A stretch of DNA of 64,000 bases from Leisingera sp. S132 (GTDB lineage: Bacteria > Pseudomonadota > Alphaproteobacteria > Rhodobacterales > Rhodobacteraceae): assembly GCF_025144465.1 (NCBI RefSeq), contig NZ_CP083553.1:2726001-2790000 (forward strand). The letters are read 5' to 3'. The position numbers were made by a program, and so were the translations under genes. Positions 38,793 through 46,647 of this stretch are shown here, in pieces; the stretch's first letter is position 1, and each line of letters starts with the position of its first letter. Under the pieces are notes generated by a model. It did not search any database and had not been told where the DNA came from. It saw only the letters and a program-made list of their open reading frames with translations.

Positions 38793-38867
38793 GGCCCGTT
38801 CGTCTATCGGTTAGGACGCCAGGTTTTCAACCTGGAAAGAGGGGTTCGATTCCCCTACGGGCTGCCA
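38793..38867 (+). tRNA. tRNA-Glu (TTC)
   Basis: 75 bases with GGCCCGT/ACGGGCT acceptor arm (one G-T pair), CCAGG-TTTTCAA-CCTGG anticodon arm with anticodon TTC, GGGGTTCGATTCCCC T arm and encoded CCA. The D loop has the usual CTATCGGTTAGGA. Confidence 0.97.
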
Positions 38868-39033: not shown

Positions 39034-39849
39034 TCAGCCAGGGCTTGAGGCAGAGCCGGACCTGACAGCGGCTCCGGCCTGCGGACGAGAGGCCGCGCGC
39101 CAGTAGCCCCACCCCATGATCACAGCCCCTGCAAAGATATTGCCAAGGGTGACGAAGGTCAGATTATGGGCTGCGCCGGCAATTGTGATGCTGGCCGGGT
39201 GATCCGACATCAGCGCCACCGAGAATACCGTCATATTGGCAATGCTGTGCTCGAAGCCCGCCGCGATGAAGGCATAGAGGCACCAAAAGATGATGATGCA
39301 TTTGGTCACGTCGTCCTTGGCCCGCGCGGTGCACCACAGGGCCAGGCACACCAGCCAGTTGCACAAGACGGCTTTGGCAAACAGCTGAACACCCGTTCCG
39401 TGCATTTTCTTGGCTGCCACTTTAAGTAGCAGAGCCTCTTCTCCTGCCGCCAGGATCAGCCCGCCGCCGCCCGCCACAAAGAGCAGCGCCAGCAAAAGCG
39501 CTCCTATCAGATTGCCTGCCCAGCTGGCTGCCCAGCATTGCAGGAGGTCGCCCAAGCTGCTCTGCCCGGTCAGAAAGCCATGCGTCATGTACATGGTGTG
39601 GCCGGTGAACAGCTCGGCCCCTGCAAAAACCACCAGCGTCAGGGCAATACCAAAGCTTGCGCCCATCACAATGGGCCGGATGGCGGCGTCAGCTCCCTGA
39701 CCCACTGAGAATATCAGCAGGATACCCGCCCCCACGAATGCACCCGCTTTAAAGGCGAGGATCAGGAAGCCCAATGGGTCGGCCCGCAGGCTGGCGCTTT
39801 TGTTCTGCGCGACCTCGGCAAATCCCAGAACGGTTTCAGCATAGGTCAT
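39034..39849 (-). CDS. formate/nitrite transporter (FNT) family channel
   Basis: 271 residues with about six membrane helices. The FNT signatures are AFKAGAFVGAG (about 32-42), FAGAELFTGHTMYMTHG (about 75-91), KAVLCNWLVCLALW and AAGFEHSIANMTVF (conserved channel His). The family moves formate, nitrite or other small anions. It is the last gene of an NsrR-flanked operon for NO chemistry, so nitrite is the likelier substrate. The start overlaps orf1 as ATGA. Confidence 0.87.
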   Translation of the reverse strand: MTYAETVLGFAEVAQNKSASLRADPLGFLILAFKAGAFVGAGILLIFSVGQGADAAIRPIVMGASFGIALTLVVFAGAELFTGHTMYMTHGFLTGQSSLGDLLQCWAASWAGNLIGALLLALLFVAGGGGLILAAGEEALLLKVAAKKMHGTGVQLFAKAVLCNWLVCLALWCTARAKDDVTKCIIIFWCLYAFIAAGFEHSIANMTVFSVALMSDHPASITIAGAAHNLTFVTLGNIFAGAVIMGWGYWRAASRPQAGAAVRSGSASSPG

Positions 39850-40415
39850 TTTACTTCAAGCTCCGCGTTGGGCGTATCCGGAGCTGCCCAGCGCAGCCTG
39901 CGCGGATGTCCGAACAGAACCGGGATAGCCCAAAGGCAGGCCAGAGCCGCGGCGAGATAGAGGAAGGCAAAGCCCAGATCCTGCTGGGCCGAGACCAGGT
40001 AGGAGTTGCAGATCCGTACCGGCGCATGGGTATACAGAAACCCGAGCACCCCCAGCATCGACAGCGCATTCGCTTTCAGAAAGCCGCGCAGGATTGGGCC
40101 CAGCCAAGGCCAGGACAGCCGCAACGGCACCCCCAGCAGCAGCGGCAAAGTGATATATTTGGCGGCCTCCCCGGCCGGGGACAGCGCCCAGTCCACATTG
40201 CGCGGCAGCATCCAGAACAGAAAGGTGGTCAGCGCCGCCAGCAGCAGGGGCACGGCCCAGCTGCGCGGGGCTTTCAGGTTCCAGGCTGCCACAACGCCCG
40301 CCAGCACCAGCAAGGGCATCTGCACCAGGACATGCTGGACCGGGCTGGCCACCGCCGCATCCCGCAGTGCAACGGCTTCGGCAAAGGCAAGCAAGGCCAG
40401 GCAGATCATCCTCAT
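39846..40415 (-). CDS. membrane protein, orf1-type partner of sNOR operon
   Basis: 189 residues with about five or six helices and no cofactor motif. It occupies the position of orf1 in norSY-senC-orf1 operons described in ammonia oxidisers; I cannot verify homology without a search. The start overlaps senC and the end overlaps the FNT gene, both as ATGA, so translation is coupled across the operon. Confidence 0.65.
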   Translation of the reverse strand: MRMICLALLAFAEAVALRDAAVASPVQHVLVQMPLLVLAGVVAAWNLKAPRSWAVPLLLAALTTFLFWMLPRNVDWALSPAGEAAKYITLPLLLGVPLRLSWPWLGPILRGFLKANALSMLGVLGFLYTHAPVRICNSYLVSAQQDLGFAFLYLAAALACLWAIPVLFGHPRRLRWAAPDTPNAELEVK

Positions 40416-41011
40416 GGCCGCGACCCGTTCACATGTGCCAGCACAGCGTCCACTGCGTCGGTATCGTAGACAGCAGAGAAGCGGCCATCGCCGGTGATCA
40501 CATGGATCGCTGCATTATGCTGGTAGCCGCCCCACTCATCCGGGATGACAGTCACGTCAAACAGGTCCAATAGCTCCGGCAGTGCCTTCTGCTCCGGCCG
40601 TGCGATGGTCCACATAATGCCGTCGGCCTCATGCGCATCGCCATAGATCGCCATCTGCTCCGGCGTGTCGCGCTCCGGGTCGAAGCTGACTGAGAGCAGC
40701 CGGACCTTCACCCCTTGCGCCTGCAGGCGGTCGCGGATCTCTGCAAAATCGGCCGCGGCGATCTGGCAGATGTCGCCGCAGACGGTATAGATGAACTCGA
40801 CCAGAACAACCTCACCCGCTTGAGGCAGCAATGGCACCGGCCGGCTCGTCATGTCCTCCAGCAGCACCTTGGGGACTTGACGCGGCGACTGCACCACATC
40901 CAGCCGCCGCGCCGCCTCGCTGGTGAAGGCCTGCGCCCCGTCGGTGGCCTGCCACAGGATCCCGCCGCCAATCACGGCGGCGAGAACCGAAGGGAGAACA
41001 CGGGCCAGCAT
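40412..41011 (-). CDS. senC: SCO1/SenC family copper chaperone
   Basis: Membrane-anchored thioredoxin-fold chaperone that delivers copper to the CuA site. From ATG 41011 (199 residues) there is an N-terminal anchor (about 4-20), the copper motif CGDIC (Cys78/Cys82), and a distal conserved His in YQHNAAIHVI. The frame is open to 41119 but that extension lies inside the subunit I gene. It fits the presence of a CuA subunit in the operon. Confidence 0.9.
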   Translation of the reverse strand: MLARVLPSVLAAVIGGGILWQATDGAQAFTSEAARRLDVVQSPRQVPKVLLEDMTSRPVPLLPQAGEVVLVEFIYTVCGDICQIAAADFAEIRDRLQAQGVKVRLLSVSFDPERDTPEQMAIYGDAHEADGIMWTIARPEQKALPELLDLFDVTVIPDEWGGYQHNAAIHVITGDGRFSAVYDTDAVDAVLAHVNGSRP

Positions 41012-42471
41012 CAGCCTTCGCGCCGCCCTAGCCGCGCCGCAAAGCGCAGGACAAAGACCAGCGTCCCCAGCACAACCAGACCGCCGAAAAAGGTGCCGAT
41101 GCGGTCGTGGGCCAGCCATTCCTCATAGTGCACAGCCCAGCGGCGCGGGATCGAGGCGGCACCGGAGAACAGGAACACCGTCACAAACCCTGCGGCACCC
41201 ACCAGGTAGGTAACAAAAGCCGCCCGGTCCAAACCGCCCATTTGCGAGATCGTCTTGCCGCGCACCAGCCAGGCCATGAAGCCAAAGGCCATCGCCACCT
41301 CGCCCAGCAGCAGATAGGTGTGAAAATGGCCCGGCACCCACATGGTGTTGTGCATCACCTTGTTGACACTGATCATCCCGTCGATGGAGGCCGGAATGGA
41401 CCCCACCGACCAACCCGCAACTGACAGCACCAGAAGCGACGATGCCAGGTCCCAGGTCATCTTGGAGCCGCGCACATAAAGGAAGGTGGAAAGGGCGGTG
41501 ACCGCAATCAGGGGAATGCCGCTGAAGTAGGAGACCAGCTGCCCCACTACCAGCATCCACGGCGGCATCACCACATCCTGCAACAGGTGGTGCCAGTAGA
41601 CTGCCATCACAAAGATCAGCACCGCATTCCAGGCGATTGCAAACAGCCGGTTCGATTTCCAGGGCTTTCCGGTGTATTCCGGCAGGATCTCATAGACCGC
41701 CGTCACAGCCATATAGATCGAGGCGTTGATGAAGACATGGCCGAAGAAATAGATCAGGTTCTTGGCCAGCAGCGCATCCACCTCGAACCCCGGCACCAGC
41801 AGATGCACCAGGCTTGCAACCAAAACGGCCGCGCCCAGGATGATACCAATCGAGTTGAATATTGTCACAGCCGCGGCCGCCACGATGGCCGGCGGCGGTG
41901 GATCGTTGTCCTCGCGCCCCAGGATCAGATTCCAGCCCAGCGCCCGGACCAGGCTGCCATAACGCGCATGGATCCGGCGGCCCAGCTCCAGGTAATACAG
42001 CAGAAAGCCCACCCCGATGGCAGTGTATCCCAGCATGAAGGACGCGGCTGCACCTGCCTCCCAGGCGCCGCCGGACAGGGCAGGCAGAGGGAACAGGAAA
42101 GTCCAGGCACCGCCGTAACCGCCAATGAAGATCGCGCCAAGGATCAGCGCCACGCCTAGCAGGAAAAGCCCCAGGAAGGCCCAGAAGATGCCGCCCGACA
42201 GCACAAGATGGCGGCCGCAGAAATACCACATGATGGCCGCGCCCGACAGCGCAGCAGTGCCCACCATGCCCGCGCCATGTGCGGTCAGCAGCTGGTAGAA
42301 CAGTGCCGGGTCCAGCTCAATCCACTGGCCCTGCGCTGCGCGCATGAGGAGGCCGAAGACCATCATCAGCGCAAACACCGCGCCAGTGAGGATCATCGTC
42401 AGCTTGACCGCCCCGGCCTGCGGCGCAGCCGCTGCAAGCCCAGGAACATAATTTTCAGATGCAGTGCTCAT
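41011..42471 (-). CDS. norY: heme-copper oxidase superfamily subunit I, probable sNOR-type NO reductase
   Basis: 486 residues, about 12 helices. All six metal histidines are present: His65 and His384 (low-spin heme), His382 (high-spin heme), His245, His294 and His295 (CuB). At His245+4, where oxygen reductases carry the Tyr cross-linked to CuB-His, this protein has Asn249 (GHVFIN). That argues against oxygen reduction. With the CuA subunit, senC, orf1 and NsrR, the set matches norSY-senC-orf1. The alternative is an unusual B-type cytochrome c oxidase. It starts directly after the subunit II stop. Confidence 0.75.
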   Translation of the reverse strand: MSTASENYVPGLAAAAPQAGAVKLTMILTGAVFALMMVFGLLMRAAQGQWIELDPALFYQLLTAHGAGMVGTAALSGAAIMWYFCGRHLVLSGGIFWAFLGLFLLGVALILGAIFIGGYGGAWTFLFPLPALSGGAWEAGAAASFMLGYTAIGVGFLLYYLELGRRIHARYGSLVRALGWNLILGREDNDPPPPAIVAAAAVTIFNSIGIILGAAVLVASLVHLLVPGFEVDALLAKNLIYFFGHVFINASIYMAVTAVYEILPEYTGKPWKSNRLFAIAWNAVLIFVMAVYWHHLLQDVVMPPWMLVVGQLVSYFSGIPLIAVTALSTFLYVRGSKMTWDLASSLLVLSVAGWSVGSIPASIDGMISVNKVMHNTMWVPGHFHTYLLLGEVAMAFGFMAWLVRGKTISQMGGLDRAAFVTYLVGAAGFVTVFLFSGAASIPRRWAVHYEEWLAHDRIGTFFGGLVVLGTLVFVLRFAARLGRREG

Positions 42472-42981
42472 TTACTCCTCCGCCGCGATAACTTCGAATT
42501 CATTGACCATGTCGTGATGCGCCACGCCGCAAAACTCCATGCAGAGAACCTGGTAGCTGCCGGGTTCCTCAAAGGTGTAGGTGATCTGCGTGGTGTAGCC
42601 GGGGATCGCCTGCACCTGGGTCAGAAGTGTCAGCTCGCTGTCATAGATGCCCATCCCATGGGTCACGTCCTCGGTGGTCACGTTGAAATTGACCGGCTGG
42701 CCCGCCGGAATTTCCGCGGTGTCAATGTCCCACCACCACTGGCCGCCGCTGACATTCACCTCCAGCGCATCGCCGGTGCCGGCCAGCGCATGCGGCCACT
42801 CCCGCAGCGAAGCAACAGAGATGATCACGCCCGCTATTGTCATCGCCCAGATCAGCCCCTTGCGTTTTGCGTTGGCGCCCGGACCAGGCGCCGGACCGCG
42901 CGAAGACCGCGCAGCAGCGGCAAACACCGCTGACAGCGCCGCCATCAGGACCAGCGAGATTAAAAGAACAACCGGCTGCAT
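42472..42981 (-). CDS. norS: CuA-containing subunit II of the heme-copper enzyme
   Basis: 169 residues: one N-terminal anchor (about 3-25), a second hydrophobic segment (about 43-58), and a cupredoxin domain. The CuA ligands are complete: His108, then Cys147, Cys151, His155 and Met158 in CMEFCGVAHHDM; Trp-rich QWWWDID is also present. It would receive electrons from cytochrome c or a blue-copper protein. First gene of the operon; GGAGG precedes the ATG and the NsrR-like site is 16 bases upstream. Confidence 0.85.
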   Translation of the reverse strand: MQPVVLLISLVLMAALSAVFAAAARSSRGPAPGPGANAKRKGLIWAMTIAGVIISVASLREWPHALAGTGDALEVNVSGGQWWWDIDTAEIPAGQPVNFNVTTEDVTHGMGIYDSELTLLTQVQAIPGYTTQITYTFEEPGSYQVLCMEFCGVAHHDMVNEFEVIAAEE

Positions 42982-42996
42982 GCGCCGCCTCCATTT

Positions 42997-43019
42997 AATA
43001 GGTATTTTAGATGCCTATT
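42997..43019. promoter_or_regulatory. putative NsrR operator
   Basis: AATAGGTATTT-T-AGATGCCTATT, two 11-base half-sites around one base, matching at 9 of 11 positions. This 11-1-11 geometry with an AT-rich middle is that of known NsrR sites. It lies between divergent norS and nsrR, 16 bases from the norS start. Confidence 0.7.
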
Positions 43020-43089
43020 ATTGGATTGCCCGGATACATGTCAACAAAATACGTCTTTTCAGTGCATATTATTTATGGGATGAACGCTT

Positions 43090-43545
43090 ATGCAGATCAC
43101 CAAGTTTTCCGATTACGCCCTGCGCATCCTGATCCACCTCGCCACCCACGAGGACGGGCTGATGACCACCCGCGAAATTGCCGGGATGCAGCAGCTGCCG
43201 TTCAACCACCTGGCCAAGATTTCCCAATGGCTGACCCACGAGGGCTATGTGGAATCGGTCCGCGGCCGCAACGGCGGCATGCGCCTGGCCAAGCGGCCCG
43301 AGGCAATCTCCATCGGCGCTCTGCTGCGCAAATCCGAACACGGCACACCGCTGGTGGAATGCATGAAAGAGGACGGCGGCTGCTGTGTGATGACGCCGGC
43401 CTGCGGGCTGCTGCCGATCCTGTCTGAGGCGCAGGAGGCCTTCTTTGCCGCGCTGGACAACCGCACCCTCAAGGACGTGCTGGAAGGAAACCGCGGCATG
43501 AAGAACCTGATCCGAAAGCTGGAGGCGGAGCAGGCCTTGAAATAG
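43090..43545 (+). CDS. nsrR: Rrf2 family NO-sensing repressor NsrR
   Basis: 151 residues with winged-helix DNA-binding domain (MQITKFSDYALRILIHLATH...MTTREIAGMQQLPFNHLAKI) and iron-sulfur ligand cysteines Cys91, Cys98/99 and Cys105 (CMKEDGGCCVMTPAC), the NsrR spacing. NO destroys the cluster and relieves repression. Divergent from norSY-senC-orf1 with an operator-like palindrome between them. Confidence 0.9.
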   Translation: MQITKFSDYALRILIHLATHEDGLMTTREIAGMQQLPFNHLAKISQWLTHEGYVESVRGRNGGMRLAKRPEAISIGALLRKSEHGTPLVECMKEDGGCCVMTPACGLLPILSEAQEAFFAALDNRTLKDVLEGNRGMKNLIRKLEAEQALK

Positions 43546-43586: not shown

Positions 43587-43766
43587 TCACTTGGCGGCAC
43601 CAGACACCGTGCCCTCCAGCACCTGCCAGTTCCAGGCTTCAAACGCCACGGACAGGTGCCAGGCCTTGAACCCGGCGTAGCCTGCCAGCAGCGCCAGTAT
43701 CAGCAGGTACATCATCCTGCGGAAACGCAGGTTCTCTTCCGGCCGTGTGTTCTCAGTCCCGTGCAT
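43587..43766 (-). CDS. small single-pass membrane protein
   Basis: 59 residues from ATG 43766 with one helix (MMYLLILALLAGYAGFKAW). It overlaps the end of the ccoP fragment by 14 bases, so it was probably the last gene of the former cco operon. No family recognised. Its promoter is probably gone with the operon. Confidence 0.5.
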   Translation of the reverse strand: MHGTENTRPEENLRFRRMMYLLILALLAGYAGFKAWHLSVAFEAWNWQVLEGTVSGAAK

Positions 43767-44085
43767 CACTGCCATTCCACAACACATACAATGTCAGCAT
43801 CCGGATTTGGGCATCGCTCAGCCGTCCCTGCCAGGCCGGCATGACGCCCATCCGGCCATAGTAGACACTGCGGTAAATGTCGTCCCGGCTGCCGCCATAA
43901 ATCCACCGGCTGTCACCCAGGTCCGGCGCGCCGTTTTCGTAGCCGCCACGCCCGTCATCGCCGTGACAGGCAGCGCAGTTGTCCTCAAACACCGTCCTGC
44001 CCGCTTCGGCCAGCTCCGCGTTATGCGCCTGTCCTGACAGCGACAGCACAAATTCCACTGCCTGGCGTGCCCCCATCGGGTGGTC
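43753..44085 (-). pseudogene. ccoP: 3' fragment of cbb3 oxidase subunit III (ccoP)
   Basis: About 107 residues from the only in-frame ATG. FVLSLSGQ, then NCAACHGDDGRGG (heme c motif CAACH), GAPDLGDSRWIYGGS, and RMGVMPAWQGRLSDAQIRMLTLYV (axial Met) match the second heme domain of CcoP. The first heme domain and membrane helix are missing; the frame stays open upstream (DHP, then TIKP) and runs into the IS3 element. No ccoN or ccoO is in the window. It could be read as a stand-alone cytochrome, but there is no signal peptide. Confidence 0.75.
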
Positions 44086-44142: not shown

Positions 44143-45022
44143 TCATGCGACCTTTCGGGTTTCGTTCAGTTGGGCCGCACATTCGCTCGGCGTCAAGTTC
44201 CCCGGCGAGGAATGCGGCCTGGCTTCATTGTAATCGGCTCTCCATTCGCTGATCCGCTTTCGGGCGTCGTCCATCGACAGGAACCATGAGGCGTTCAAGC
44301 ATTCCTGTCTAAGGCGGCTGTTGAACGCTTCGATGTATGCGTTATCTTTCGGTTTTCCGGGCCTCGAGAAGTCCAACTCGACCTTGTTCAGGTAGGCCCG
44401 CTGGTCAAGTAACCGGCCGGCGAACTCAGGCCCCTTGTCGGCTCGAATGCTTCGTGGCTTGCCTCGGATCCGGGCTAACCGATCCAATTCATCACTGACC
44501 TGGCAGGCTCGGAAGTTTGTCCTCGCAGCAGTCGCGAGAGCCTCTCTCGTAAAGCAGTCGGCAATGGTCGCAATACGAAACGGTTTTTCGTCGAACGGCC
44601 GGTCCGACATGAAGTCCCCTCCCGGCGATGCACGGCATCGCCTGCCGGGCAGGGATTGCCCAGATCTCATTCATGCCGTCAGCCTCGGATCGGCCGGATC
44701 GATACCGGCAGGCCCGGCGCCGCTTCGGGCTGCGGGTCCGGATCGACAGGCCCTCTTCGCAGTACAGGCGGTACAGGCGCTTGTGGTTCACATGCCACCC
44801 CTCCCTTTGCAGCAGTATGTGCAGGCGACGATATCCATACCGCACACGGCTTTCGGCCAACTCCTTCAGGCGCATCCGCAATTCAACCGCCGGATCGCGC
44901 CTGGATTGATATCTGCGGGAAGCCCGTCCGAAGCCCATGGCATTACAAGCACGGCGCTCCGACACCTCAAACACACCCTGATAGTGCCGGACGACCTCGC
45001 GGCGGCGGACAGGCTTCACCAC
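44143..45022 (-). pseudogene. IS3-family transposase orfB, disrupted
   Basis: DDE transposase in two frames. The N-terminal part (45022 to about 44650) has the HTH_21-like segment RVRYGYRRLHILLQREGW and ends at NEIWA. The C-terminal part begins DFMSDRPFDEKPFRIATIADCFTREALA with the first catalytic Asp, then RADKGPEF (second Asp; Asn changed to Lys) and YIEAFNSRLRQECLN (Glu). A 37-bp palindromic insertion between NEIWA and DFMSD (about 44618-44654) shifts the frame. Inactive. Confidence 0.85.
44618..44654. repeat. 37-bp palindromic insertion in IS3 orfB
   Basis: Relative to the expected NEIWAMDFMSD codons, 37 extra bases are present. They contain GGCGATGC-ACG-GCATCGCC and flanking CCCTCCC/GGGCAGGG arms, an imperfect hairpin. 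The insertion is 1 mod 3 and breaks the frame. Ends may be off by a base or two. Confidence 0.65.
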
Positions 45023-45282
45023 TTTTTTCTCAGCGCGTCCTGCAACATCGTTTTGTCCAGCGTCAGATCAGCGACCAGGCGCTTCAGCTTGCTGTTCTCG
45101 TCTTCGAGCTGTTTCAGCCGCCGGATCTCCGACACACCCATCCCCGCATAGACCTTCTTACCGCGATAGAACGTCGCTTCCGCGACCCCCATCTTGCGGC
45201 AAATCTCTCCAACCGCCGTCCCGGCTTCCGCTTGCCTCAAAGCAAAGGCAATCTGTTCGTCGCTCAATCGTTTCTTCGGCAT
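45016..45282 (-). CDS. IS3-family transposase orfA
   Basis: 88 residues from ATG 45282: HTH domain PKKRLSDEQIAFALRQAEAG...VGEICRKMGVAEATFY and a leucine-zipper tail (IRRLKQLEDENSKLKRLVADLTLDK). Intact, but useless without orfB. The end carries the AGA-AAA-AAG slippery run for -1 frameshifting into orfB. Confidence 0.88.
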   Translation of the reverse strand: MPKKRLSDEQIAFALRQAEAGTAVGEICRKMGVAEATFYRGKKVYAGMGVSEIRRLKQLEDENSKLKRLVADLTLDKTMLQDALRKKW

Positions 45283-45359
45283 CGGTACACTCCCTCTCTT
45301 GCCAGAAATGTTCCCAAAAATTCGCATTCACTCCGGACCAGTCTCAGGGGGCAGGACCA

Positions 45360-45597: not shown

Positions 45598-46647
45598 GAC
45601 TCTGTTGCGCAAATCGGTTGAGGGCCAAGGTTCCCCTTTCCCCAGACGGACTTATCCCACTGCCTCTGTGACGGGTATGCCAAGCGCGGTGAATCCGTTC
45701 ATGACCGCAACACGGAGCTGAAGCTCGGCAACCTGACGTCCAGGATCCCGTGCCATCAGTCTTTGTCCCAGCAGTTTCATGCAGTGCATCTTGGTTTCGG
45801 CACGACTTCGGCGGTGGTATCCACTCCATTTCCGCCAAAGCGCTCGGCCAAGGTATTTCGACGCCCGCAGCGCTTCGTTGCGCGCAATCGCGCCTGCGGT
45901 GTCGGGTTTCCAGGGCTTGGCGTTCTTGCGGGGCGGGACGACGGCATTGGCACCTCGGTTGGCGATGGCATCGTGGCACTTGCGCGTATCGTAGGCGCCA
46001 TCTGCCGTGACACTGCCGATCTCCTGCTCGGGCGGGATCTGATTAAGCAGTTCCGGCAGCATGGGCGCATCACCAATGTTGCTACTGGTGAACTCGACTG
46101 CCCGGATTTCCAGTGTCTTTTCGTCGATACCGAGGTGAACCTTGCGCCACACGCGGCGTTTCGAGCCACCGTGCTTGCGCGCATTCCACTCGCCTTCGCC
46201 CTCTACCTTTATCCCAGTGCTGTCGATCAGCAGGTGTAGCGGCCCCTCAGAACCACGATACGGGATGTTCACGGCGAGAGACTTCTGGCGGCGTGAAAGC
46301 GTGCTAAAATCCGGTACCGACCAGTCCAATCCACTCAATCGCAGGAGACTTTCCACGAAGCCGGTCGTCTGCCTGAGCGCCATACGGAACAGCACCTTCA
46401 TCGTCAGGCAGGTCTTGATCGCGGCGTCGCTATAGATGGGCTGTCGGCCTCTCTTGCCGGTCGGCCGGGCCTCCCACGTCATCTCGGGATCGAACCAGAT
46501 CGTCAGAGAGCCACGACGCTTCAGCGCTTCGTTATAGGCCCGCCAGTTCTTGATCTTGTAGGTCGGGGGTGTTGGTCTGCTCATGCCCTCCAGCTATCAC
46601 GCTGGATTCATGAGATGAATCCCTCACCCGATTTGCGCAACAGAGCC
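45598..46647 (-). mobile_element. IS5-family element (IS903-like)
   Basis: 1050 bp bounded by 20-bp inverted repeats GACTCTGTTGCGCAAATCGG (45598-45617) and, inverted, GGCTCTGTTGCGCAAATCGG (46628-46647), one mismatch. It contains one intact transposase. Flanking 9-mers CGAAAAAGT and GTCCTGAGG differ, so there is no target duplication. Confidence 0.9.
45652..46584 (-). CDS. IS5-family (IS903-like) transposase
   Basis: 310 residues, full length for this group. The DDE catalytic residues are in LLIDSTGIKVEGEGEW (Asp), VTADGAYDTRKCHDAI (Asp) and YHRRSRAETKMHCMKLLG (Glu). The N-terminal DUF4096-like segment KRGSLTIWFDPEMTWEA is present. It appears intact and could be active. Confidence 0.93.
   Translation of the reverse strand: MSRPTPPTYKIKNWRAYNEALKRRGSLTIWFDPEMTWEARPTGKRGRQPIYSDAAIKTCLTMKVLFRMALRQTTGFVESLLRLSGLDWSVPDFSTLSRRQKSLAVNIPYRGSEGPLHLLIDSTGIKVEGEGEWNARKHGGSKRRVWRKVHLGIDEKTLEIRAVEFTSSNIGDAPMLPELLNQIPPEQEIGSVTADGAYDTRKCHDAIANRGANAVVPPRKNAKPWKPDTAGAIARNEALRASKYLGRALWRKWSGYHRRSRAETKMHCMKLLGQRLMARDPGRQVAELQLRVAVMNGFTALGIPVTEAVG

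Follow-up and report, generated by a model that had tools for sequence, protein, structure and literature searches.

An sNOR-family heme-copper enzyme, probably a nitric oxide reductase, beside an NsrR-like regulator in Leisingera sp. S132

A 64,000-nucleotide stretch of the Leisingera sp. S132 genome (hereafter the window; contig NZ_CP083553.1, positions 2,726,001 to 2,790,000) carries on its minus strand, at 39034-42981, a compact five-gene operon, namely norS, norY, sco, orf1 and fnt. By active-site residue, phylogenetic position and gene order, the heme-copper enzyme encoded by norS and norY can be assigned to the sNOR family, since Asn stands four residues after the CuB histidine of NorY and the tree groups the protein with Nitrosomonas sNOR in a supported clade that excludes the B-type oxidases. 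We judge it probable, at roughly 0.7, that NorSY is a nitric oxide (NO) reductase (NOR). We infer this substrate from the sequences, and with it NO induction, the electron donor and the roles of SCO, Orf1 and the formate/nitrite transporter (FNT) family channel. The initial annotation had proposed an NO-induced CuA-type NOR in a roseobacter; of this the family call stands, and substrate and NO induction keep their conditional form. Both the sNOR family and its presence in a roseobacter are already known, Silicibacter being among the sNOR holders in Table A4 of PMC8756737, and the finding is thus less new than first thought.

Active site and family placement of NorY

For the residue evidence, 84 sNOR-like sequences were aligned with 17 further enzymes of the heme-copper type. 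The metal histidines that the initial annotation had recognised, six in number (H65, H245, H294, H295, H382 and H384) are complete in 84/84 sNOR-like rows, and the position four residues after the CuB histidine (His+4), Asn249 in NorY, is Asn in every one of them. The same position is Tyr in eight of eight A-type and B-type oxidases (four of each), Glu in 5/5 c/qNORs, Gln in both eNOR-like sequences and Gly in both cbb3 rows. Y253, at His+8, is likewise present in 84/84 sNOR-like rows, with Glu there in the five c/qNORs, and Y292 in 81/84 (Phe in three). D364, W354 and Y386 occur in all 84 and did not appear among the A-type, B-type, eNOR-like or c/qNOR references, the cbb3 rows being outside this comparison. 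In NorS the CuA set is complete, as had also been stated (H108, C147, C151, H155 and M158).

These counts are not independent, because the 84 sequences were gathered by similarity to NorY of the window and include near-identical strains and close relatives. The locus search found 333 relatives, of which the best 80 were retained, and nine same-genus loci (L021-L029) stand outside the 84-row set, most of them belonging to genomes that the set already represents. One locus with norY split into two open reading frames (ORFs; L093) is represented by the longer ORF alone. A Parasedimentitalea marina locus was excluded from every alignment; there, on pW43B (L017, 9983-11385), norY lies in two frames, and the ccoO matches are also in two pieces.

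In a 42-row tree, which took 25 of the 84 sNOR rows, these form one clade with support of 100/99, separate from the B-type (97/94), A-type (100/99) and c/qNOR (100/100) clades. A 27-row tree without the C and c/qNOR rows, with 17 of the 84 sNOR rows, gave the same result (sNOR 100/100, B-type 96/95). The references were A-type, B-type (four rows), cbb3, c/qNOR and eNOR-like sequences, with gNOR, bNOR and nNOR not included. The tree program flagged long branches in both trees, and neither a single clade of B-type and sNOR rows (p-AU 0.0675) nor one of eNOR and sNOR rows (p-AU 0.246) was rejected. The tree support therefore places NorY outside the sampled B-type oxidases. The sNOR clade contains two Nitrosomonas loci (L089/L091), with which NorY of the window is 50-53% identical, and its most distant member is the sNOR-like locus of Thermomicrobium roseum (L018). 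The initial annotation had named, as findings that would speak against an NOR, placement among B-type oxygen reductases together with an active-site Tyr supplied from another helix, or a lack of NO reduction. As to the placement, NorY lies outside that clade in both trees. As to the Tyr, the position six residues ahead of the HH pair holds one in both cbb3 rows, where it presumably takes the equivalent role, and the sNOR row has V288 at this place.

The His+4 residue and the tree together reject an ordinary ba3/caa3 oxidase, and the absence of Glu at His+4 rejects a cNOR-like enzyme. B-type (ba3) oxygen reductases share with NorSY the CuA subunit II, the fold and several conserved residues, but NorY has Asn in place of their Tyr at His+4 and is not placed within their clade. 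eNOR is of CuA type as well, yet the two eNOR-like sequences carry Gln at His+4 and lie apart from NorY in the tree. For gNOR, Table A4 of PMC8756737 gives Asp at His+4, against Asn here, the tree holding no gNOR row. The same table gives Asn for sNOR, and also for CuANOR, and enters the sNOR proton channels as 0. According to PMC11388526 and PMC8756737, eNOR and CuANOR/bNOR are CuA-type NORs related to B-type oxidases, and PMC11388526 describes bNOR as known only from Bacillota. Asn at His+4 would fit CuANOR/bNOR too; the clade of NorY holds the Nitrosomonas sNOR, in a tree without a bNOR row. A chance origin of the pattern was rejected, since gene order and residues are widely conserved, including at one Bacillota locus (L109).

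Coordinates and gene order are as initially annotated and match the norSY-senC-orf1 order described for Nitrosomonas in PMC4940428. The sNOR of ammonia oxidisers (Nitrosomonas, Nitrosococcus oceani) shares residue, gene order and clade with that of the window, and NsrR lies near sNOR in N. oceani too, where PMC3772326 lists NsrR Noc2967 near sNOR Noc2969-2971. The window differs in its host, which belongs to a heterotrophic roseobacter genus of the family Roseobacteraceae; in fnt, which is the fifth operon gene here and on the other strand in both Nitrosomonas loci; and in its close relatives, which join the operon to a globin-DUF2189-cbb3 module.

Annotation pipelines had been expected to call this enzyme a ba3/caa3 oxidase. 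Instead, the homologue in Ruegeria pomeroyi bears the name 'cbb3-type cytochrome c oxidase subunit I', and the NCBIfam oxidase models give NorY of the window 35 bits, well short of their 671-bit cut-off. The same name was found for 36 of the 60 rows listed as plasmid matches of cNOR NorB, qNOR-like rows included. A further observation concerns the Thermus thermophilus TF25 plasmid (L114, 839-2524), where the CuB His+4 residue of an enzyme annotated as b(o/a)3 oxidase is Gln (eNOR-like) and the expected second His of its GHFH motif is Lys, with an Rrf2 gene alongside.

Operon, regulator and Orf1

The features of the locus are collected in Table 1. Adjoining operon genes touch or overlap by 1-4 bases, with the sco start set by comparison with R. 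pomeroyi; on this basis it most likely lies at 41011 and not at 41119, the start of the longest ORF. All five genes and the regulator have intact ORFs, and Pfam searches of their proteins returned COX1, COX2, SCO1-SenC, Form_Nir_trans and Rrf2. The FNT channel gene is a fifth gene within the range first described (39034..43545) that had been left out. For norY, dN/dS against eight relatives is 0.035-0.088, that is, purifying selection, and the operon is therefore neither chance nor old decay.

Table 1. Features of the sNOR locus in the window.
Feature	Position	Strand	Remarks
norS, CuA-type subunit II, 169 aa	42472..42981	-	PF00116; 70% identity to R. pomeroyi homologue
norY, heme-copper subunit I, 486 aa	41011..42471	-	PF00115; Asn249 at CuB His245+4
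sco, SCO1/SenC copper chaperone, CxxxC, 199 aa	40412..41011	-	PF02630; begins at norY stop
orf1, membrane protein, 189 aa	39846..40415	-	without Pfam or PDB fold match
fnt, formate/nitrite transporter family channel	39034..39849	-	NirC-like, 258 bits, below cut-off 293
Rrf2-family regulator, NsrR-like	43090..43545	+	divergent from operon
tRNA-Glu	38793..38867	+	adjoins operon 3' end
23-bp palindrome, 9/11 pairs	42997..43019	.	likely operator; between regulator and norS
Second palindrome position	43048..43070	.	degenerate in window, there by position only; near regulator start
ccoP 3' remnant (cbb3 oxidase subunit III)	43753..44076	-	
IS3-type element	44143..45327	-	transposase in three ORFs; IS3 type presumed from domain content
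DDE-transposase insertion element	45600..46645	-	25-nt inverted ends; transposase 45652-46584

The divergent regulator has cysteines at positions 91, 98, 99 and 105, which we take to be the cluster-cysteine pattern of NsrR, common to RirA too. Its best NCBIfam model is NsrR (110 bits), followed among specific models by RirA (97 of 193). An Rrf2-family gene lies within 7 kb at 53 of 84 loci, where about 1% would be expected by chance, a figure based on three Rrf2 genes above cut-off in the 4.69-Mb genome of the window and read with the caution that related loci are not independent.

The gap between regulator and norS carries AATAGGCATCTAAAATACCTATT, and thus the norS promoter region has an AT-core palindrome built as 11-1-11 around ATTT-AAAT, presumably the consensus of NsrR sites. 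In the host genome this pattern has a single site at no more than three mismatches, and a reversed control had none. At the second palindrome place, 9/11 pairs are found in L016, L033, L035, L036 and L037. At 42 loci the regulator is divergent, and the gap contains an AT-core 23-bp palindrome at 30 of them, whereas 100 shuffles gave 3.9 on average and never more than 8; the test was designed after sites had first been seen, related loci are included, and any AT-core palindrome counts rather than one sequence.

Orf1 gave no Pfam match. Its predicted fold is confident (pLDDT 90.5), yet the best PDB match in Foldseek has an E value of 2.1. Sixteen aligned rows share invariant W68, P71, D75, K86, Y128, P132, R134, C136, Y139, Q144 and G148. 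The gene follows sNOR closely: it occurs in exactly the 11 sNOR genomes of 101 relatives and in exactly the five sNOR genomes of 385 alphaproteobacteria (own genome included in both; no more than eight candidates per genome scored in the latter). A six-frame profile finds it in 80/84 sNOR loci (73/84 by ORF search) and in 76 of the 78 with at least 2 kb downstream. The two of these 78 at which the profile did not detect it are T. roseum and Rhodobacteraceae bacterium HTCC2083 (L069); the latter has full flanks with norS, norY and sco present, so orf1 may be dispensable or replaced there. The single extra copy belongs to a broken second sNOR operon in G009 (L141, 6972-7861), made up of the sco end, orf1 and the fnt start. 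It is plausible that Orf1 represents an undescribed membrane-protein family and near-obligate sNOR partner, acting as a third subunit or as a Cu(I)-handling factor in the assembly of the heme-CuB centre, a reading to which the conserved W68-M69-x-P71, D75, K86, M120 and P132-x-R134-x-C136-x2-Y139-x4-Q144 may be tied. The T. roseum operon, with no recognisable orf1, holds a Caa3_CtaG assembly factor (173.7 bits). That Orf1 is itself a distant Caa3_CtaG protein is not supported, with an hhalign probability of 0.9% against the T. roseum protein and no Foldseek match under E 2.

Distribution and history of the locus

A survey of 84 loci with 7-kb flanks, for which whole ORFs were required and 37 loci had a shorter flank, detected norS at 83 loci, sco at 75, orf1 at 73, an Rrf2-family gene at 53 and fnt at 45. 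ccoN was found in 23, DUF2189 in 21, group III globin in 18 (the R. pomeroyi locus being among those with globin, DUF2189 and cbb3) and HAO in two. The 47 full-flank loci gave norS 46, sco 44, orf1 44, regulator 29, fnt 27 and ccoN 19. Counts other than that of orf1 may be low too, given that the six-frame profile raised the latter from 73 to 80/84. At one locus (L102, 9140-11437) a 765-aa ORF takes the place of norY and a norS gene of its own was not detected; the long ORF may be a fusion of the two.

The other same-genus loci examined (9/9) have, in this order, globin, DUF2189, ccoNOQP, regulator, norS, norY, sco and orf1, and eight of nine have fnt, fragmented in one of these. The window locus keeps the last third of ccoP only, and homology to six relative loci (four genomes) ends at 44063-44064; by this comparison, the cbb3 genes beside the operon were lost at an insertion sequence. 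Four of these nine loci likewise have a tRNA-Glu next to the cluster, and no tRNA was found in the stretch examined for the other five. This variable neighbour, together with plasmid copies, suggests that the cluster was transferred or moved. sNOR is present in 11/101 relatives, ten of them among 21 same-genus genomes (the own genome and 20 sampled relatives), and in 5/385 alphaproteobacteria (own genome included; no more than four candidates per genome scored).

A close described counterpart is on the megaplasmid of R. pomeroyi DSS-3, formerly Silicibacter, with NorY 87-88% identical, the same operon and a divergent regulator. There the operon still has ccoNOQP, globin and DUF2189 next to it, with HAO-like genes further on, whereas the window locus has the ccoP remnant only. 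Within about 60 kb of this megaplasmid (L016/L111, 181901-250000) lie an HAO-like multiheme cytochrome gene, haoB, cytochrome c maturation genes and hemA, as well as globin, cbb3, sNOR, cNOR and NirS-type genes. In another genome of the same family (G060; L030, 1-15000), globin, an NsrR-like gene, HTHP and sNOR form one cluster; 7 kb on lies another heme-copper subunit I, eNOR-like in having Gln at His+4, with a NirS-type match between.

NO or oxygen as the substrate

NorSY would form a side branch of respiration that detoxifies NO by reducing it to N2O. Electrons would pass from cytochrome c to CuA of NorS, to the low-spin heme of NorY and on to the heme-CuB site, where Asn249 would stand in place of the cross-linked Tyr of oxygen reductases. 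An NsrR-like repressor may bind the palindrome before norS, and NO damage to its Fe-S cluster would release the operon. SCO would deliver copper to CuA, Orf1 would most likely be a dedicated assembly factor or third subunit, and the FNT channel would transport nitrite or a similar small anion. We favour NO reduction because of the lost Tyr, the family assignment, the Rrf2/NsrR-like control and neighbours such as globin, which itself may deal with NO.

Several observations weigh against this reading. sNOR stands among proposed, not characterised, NORs in PMC11388526 (2024) and is only a proposed NOR in PMC6967387 as well; the latter favours a high-affinity oxygen reductase for Nitrosomonas europaea, where sNOR goes up under oxygen limitation, and also notes indirect evidence of NO reduction in Nitrococcus. 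The divergent regulator, which the initial annotation had called NsrR-type, keeps its cysteines and its best model, but its 110 bits fall below the curated NsrR cut-off of 182 bits, as do its R. pomeroyi and G060 homologues (100.8 and 113 bits). Twelve of the 42 regulator-norS gaps are without palindrome, seven of them alphaproteobacterial, three from Gallionella/Sideroxydans-type loci and two more from outside the alphaproteobacteria. The pattern search (up to three mismatches) found no second palindrome site in the window genome, which leaves unsupported the idea that this regulator also controls the cNOR or NirK of that genome. One genome with sNOR (G005) has no strong NirK or cNOR match and no NirS match, and is thus without an evident NO source of its own. 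NorY also appears to retain part of the B-type K-channel: Y260 and T325 are common to NorY and the B-type rows, the B-type Tyr at His+11 being V256 in NorY. Lastly, an AlphaFold2 model of NorY (pLDDT 82, pTM 0.87; 12 membrane helices, 304-333 counted as one) had no NOR among its 50 best Foldseek matches listed, all of which were oxidases with TM to query of 0.73-0.79 (ba3, 1ehk, at rank 18).

These fold matches would suit a high-affinity oxygen reductase that works without the cross-linked Tyr where oxygen is scarce and NO high, with NO reduction a side reaction. For it speak also the N. europaea norSY and senC transcripts, which rise 2.7- to 10.8-fold under oxygen limitation, and the slow NO turnover of characterised B-type enzymes, both as given in PMC6967387, and the cbb3 genes near 23/84 loci. 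Another Tyr might serve, given the conservation of Y253 and Y292, but His+4 is without Tyr in all 84 sequences and the cbb3 position is V288. Moreover, an adjoining cbb3 would presumably render a second high-affinity oxidase redundant, and the Rrf2/NsrR-like neighbour and the palindrome point to NO. We therefore regard this oxygen reductase as a doubtful though serious candidate.

A role in hydroxylamine/nitrite metabolism, with the enzyme clearing NO from an HAO-like enzyme, is suggested by R. pomeroyi, where some 14 kb upstream of norY, on the same strand, there are genes for the HAO-like multiheme cytochrome, for haoB and for cytochrome c maturation, with globin and cbb3 genes between, and by HAO and haoB near sNOR in L064 and L066. 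Such a role is very improbable here, as HAO occurs within 7 kb at only 2/84 loci, the own genome has no match and one of 101 relatives has one; as a general role of sNOR it was rejected on the same 2/84. Still more remote is that the operon is a relic of the deletion of its cbb3 neighbours. Cluster homology does stop inside ccoP near an insertion sequence, and broken copies exist elsewhere (the two-frame Parasedimentitalea norY, the partial second copy in G009), but the operon is coupled throughout, with open frames in all five genes and in the regulator, and the low dN/dS of norY speaks for function, although a very recent loss would not show in it.

NO reduction by NorSY thus remains our preferred reading, and the own genome provides a setting for it. 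NirK (536.9 bits, cut-off 296.3) is a likely NO source, and a cNOR NorB is 79% identical to that of R. pomeroyi; no NirS and no HAO-like match was found in this genome. Its other COX1-family genes, typed by motif, are one A-type and one cbb3 subunit I (L002). Whether sNOR and cNOR occur together was not informative inside the genus, cNOR matches being found in 8/9 genomes with sNOR and 9/11 without (own genome excluded, partial genes counted).

Annotation can mistake sNOR genes for those of cytochrome c oxidases, as in R. pomeroyi and, according to PMC11388526, in KEGG, and because of this NO reduction, an N2O source, may be undercounted. The choice between NO and oxygen is directly testable in a culturable roseobacter genus whose members are with and without the operon (10/21 genomes carry it). 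A useful contrast would be that between G005, with sNOR and no strong match to other NOR or nitrite reductase genes, and the window genome, with sNOR, NirK and cNOR but without adjoining cbb3 genes. Given its close coupling to the family, Orf1 may be a part needed to express sNOR in another host.

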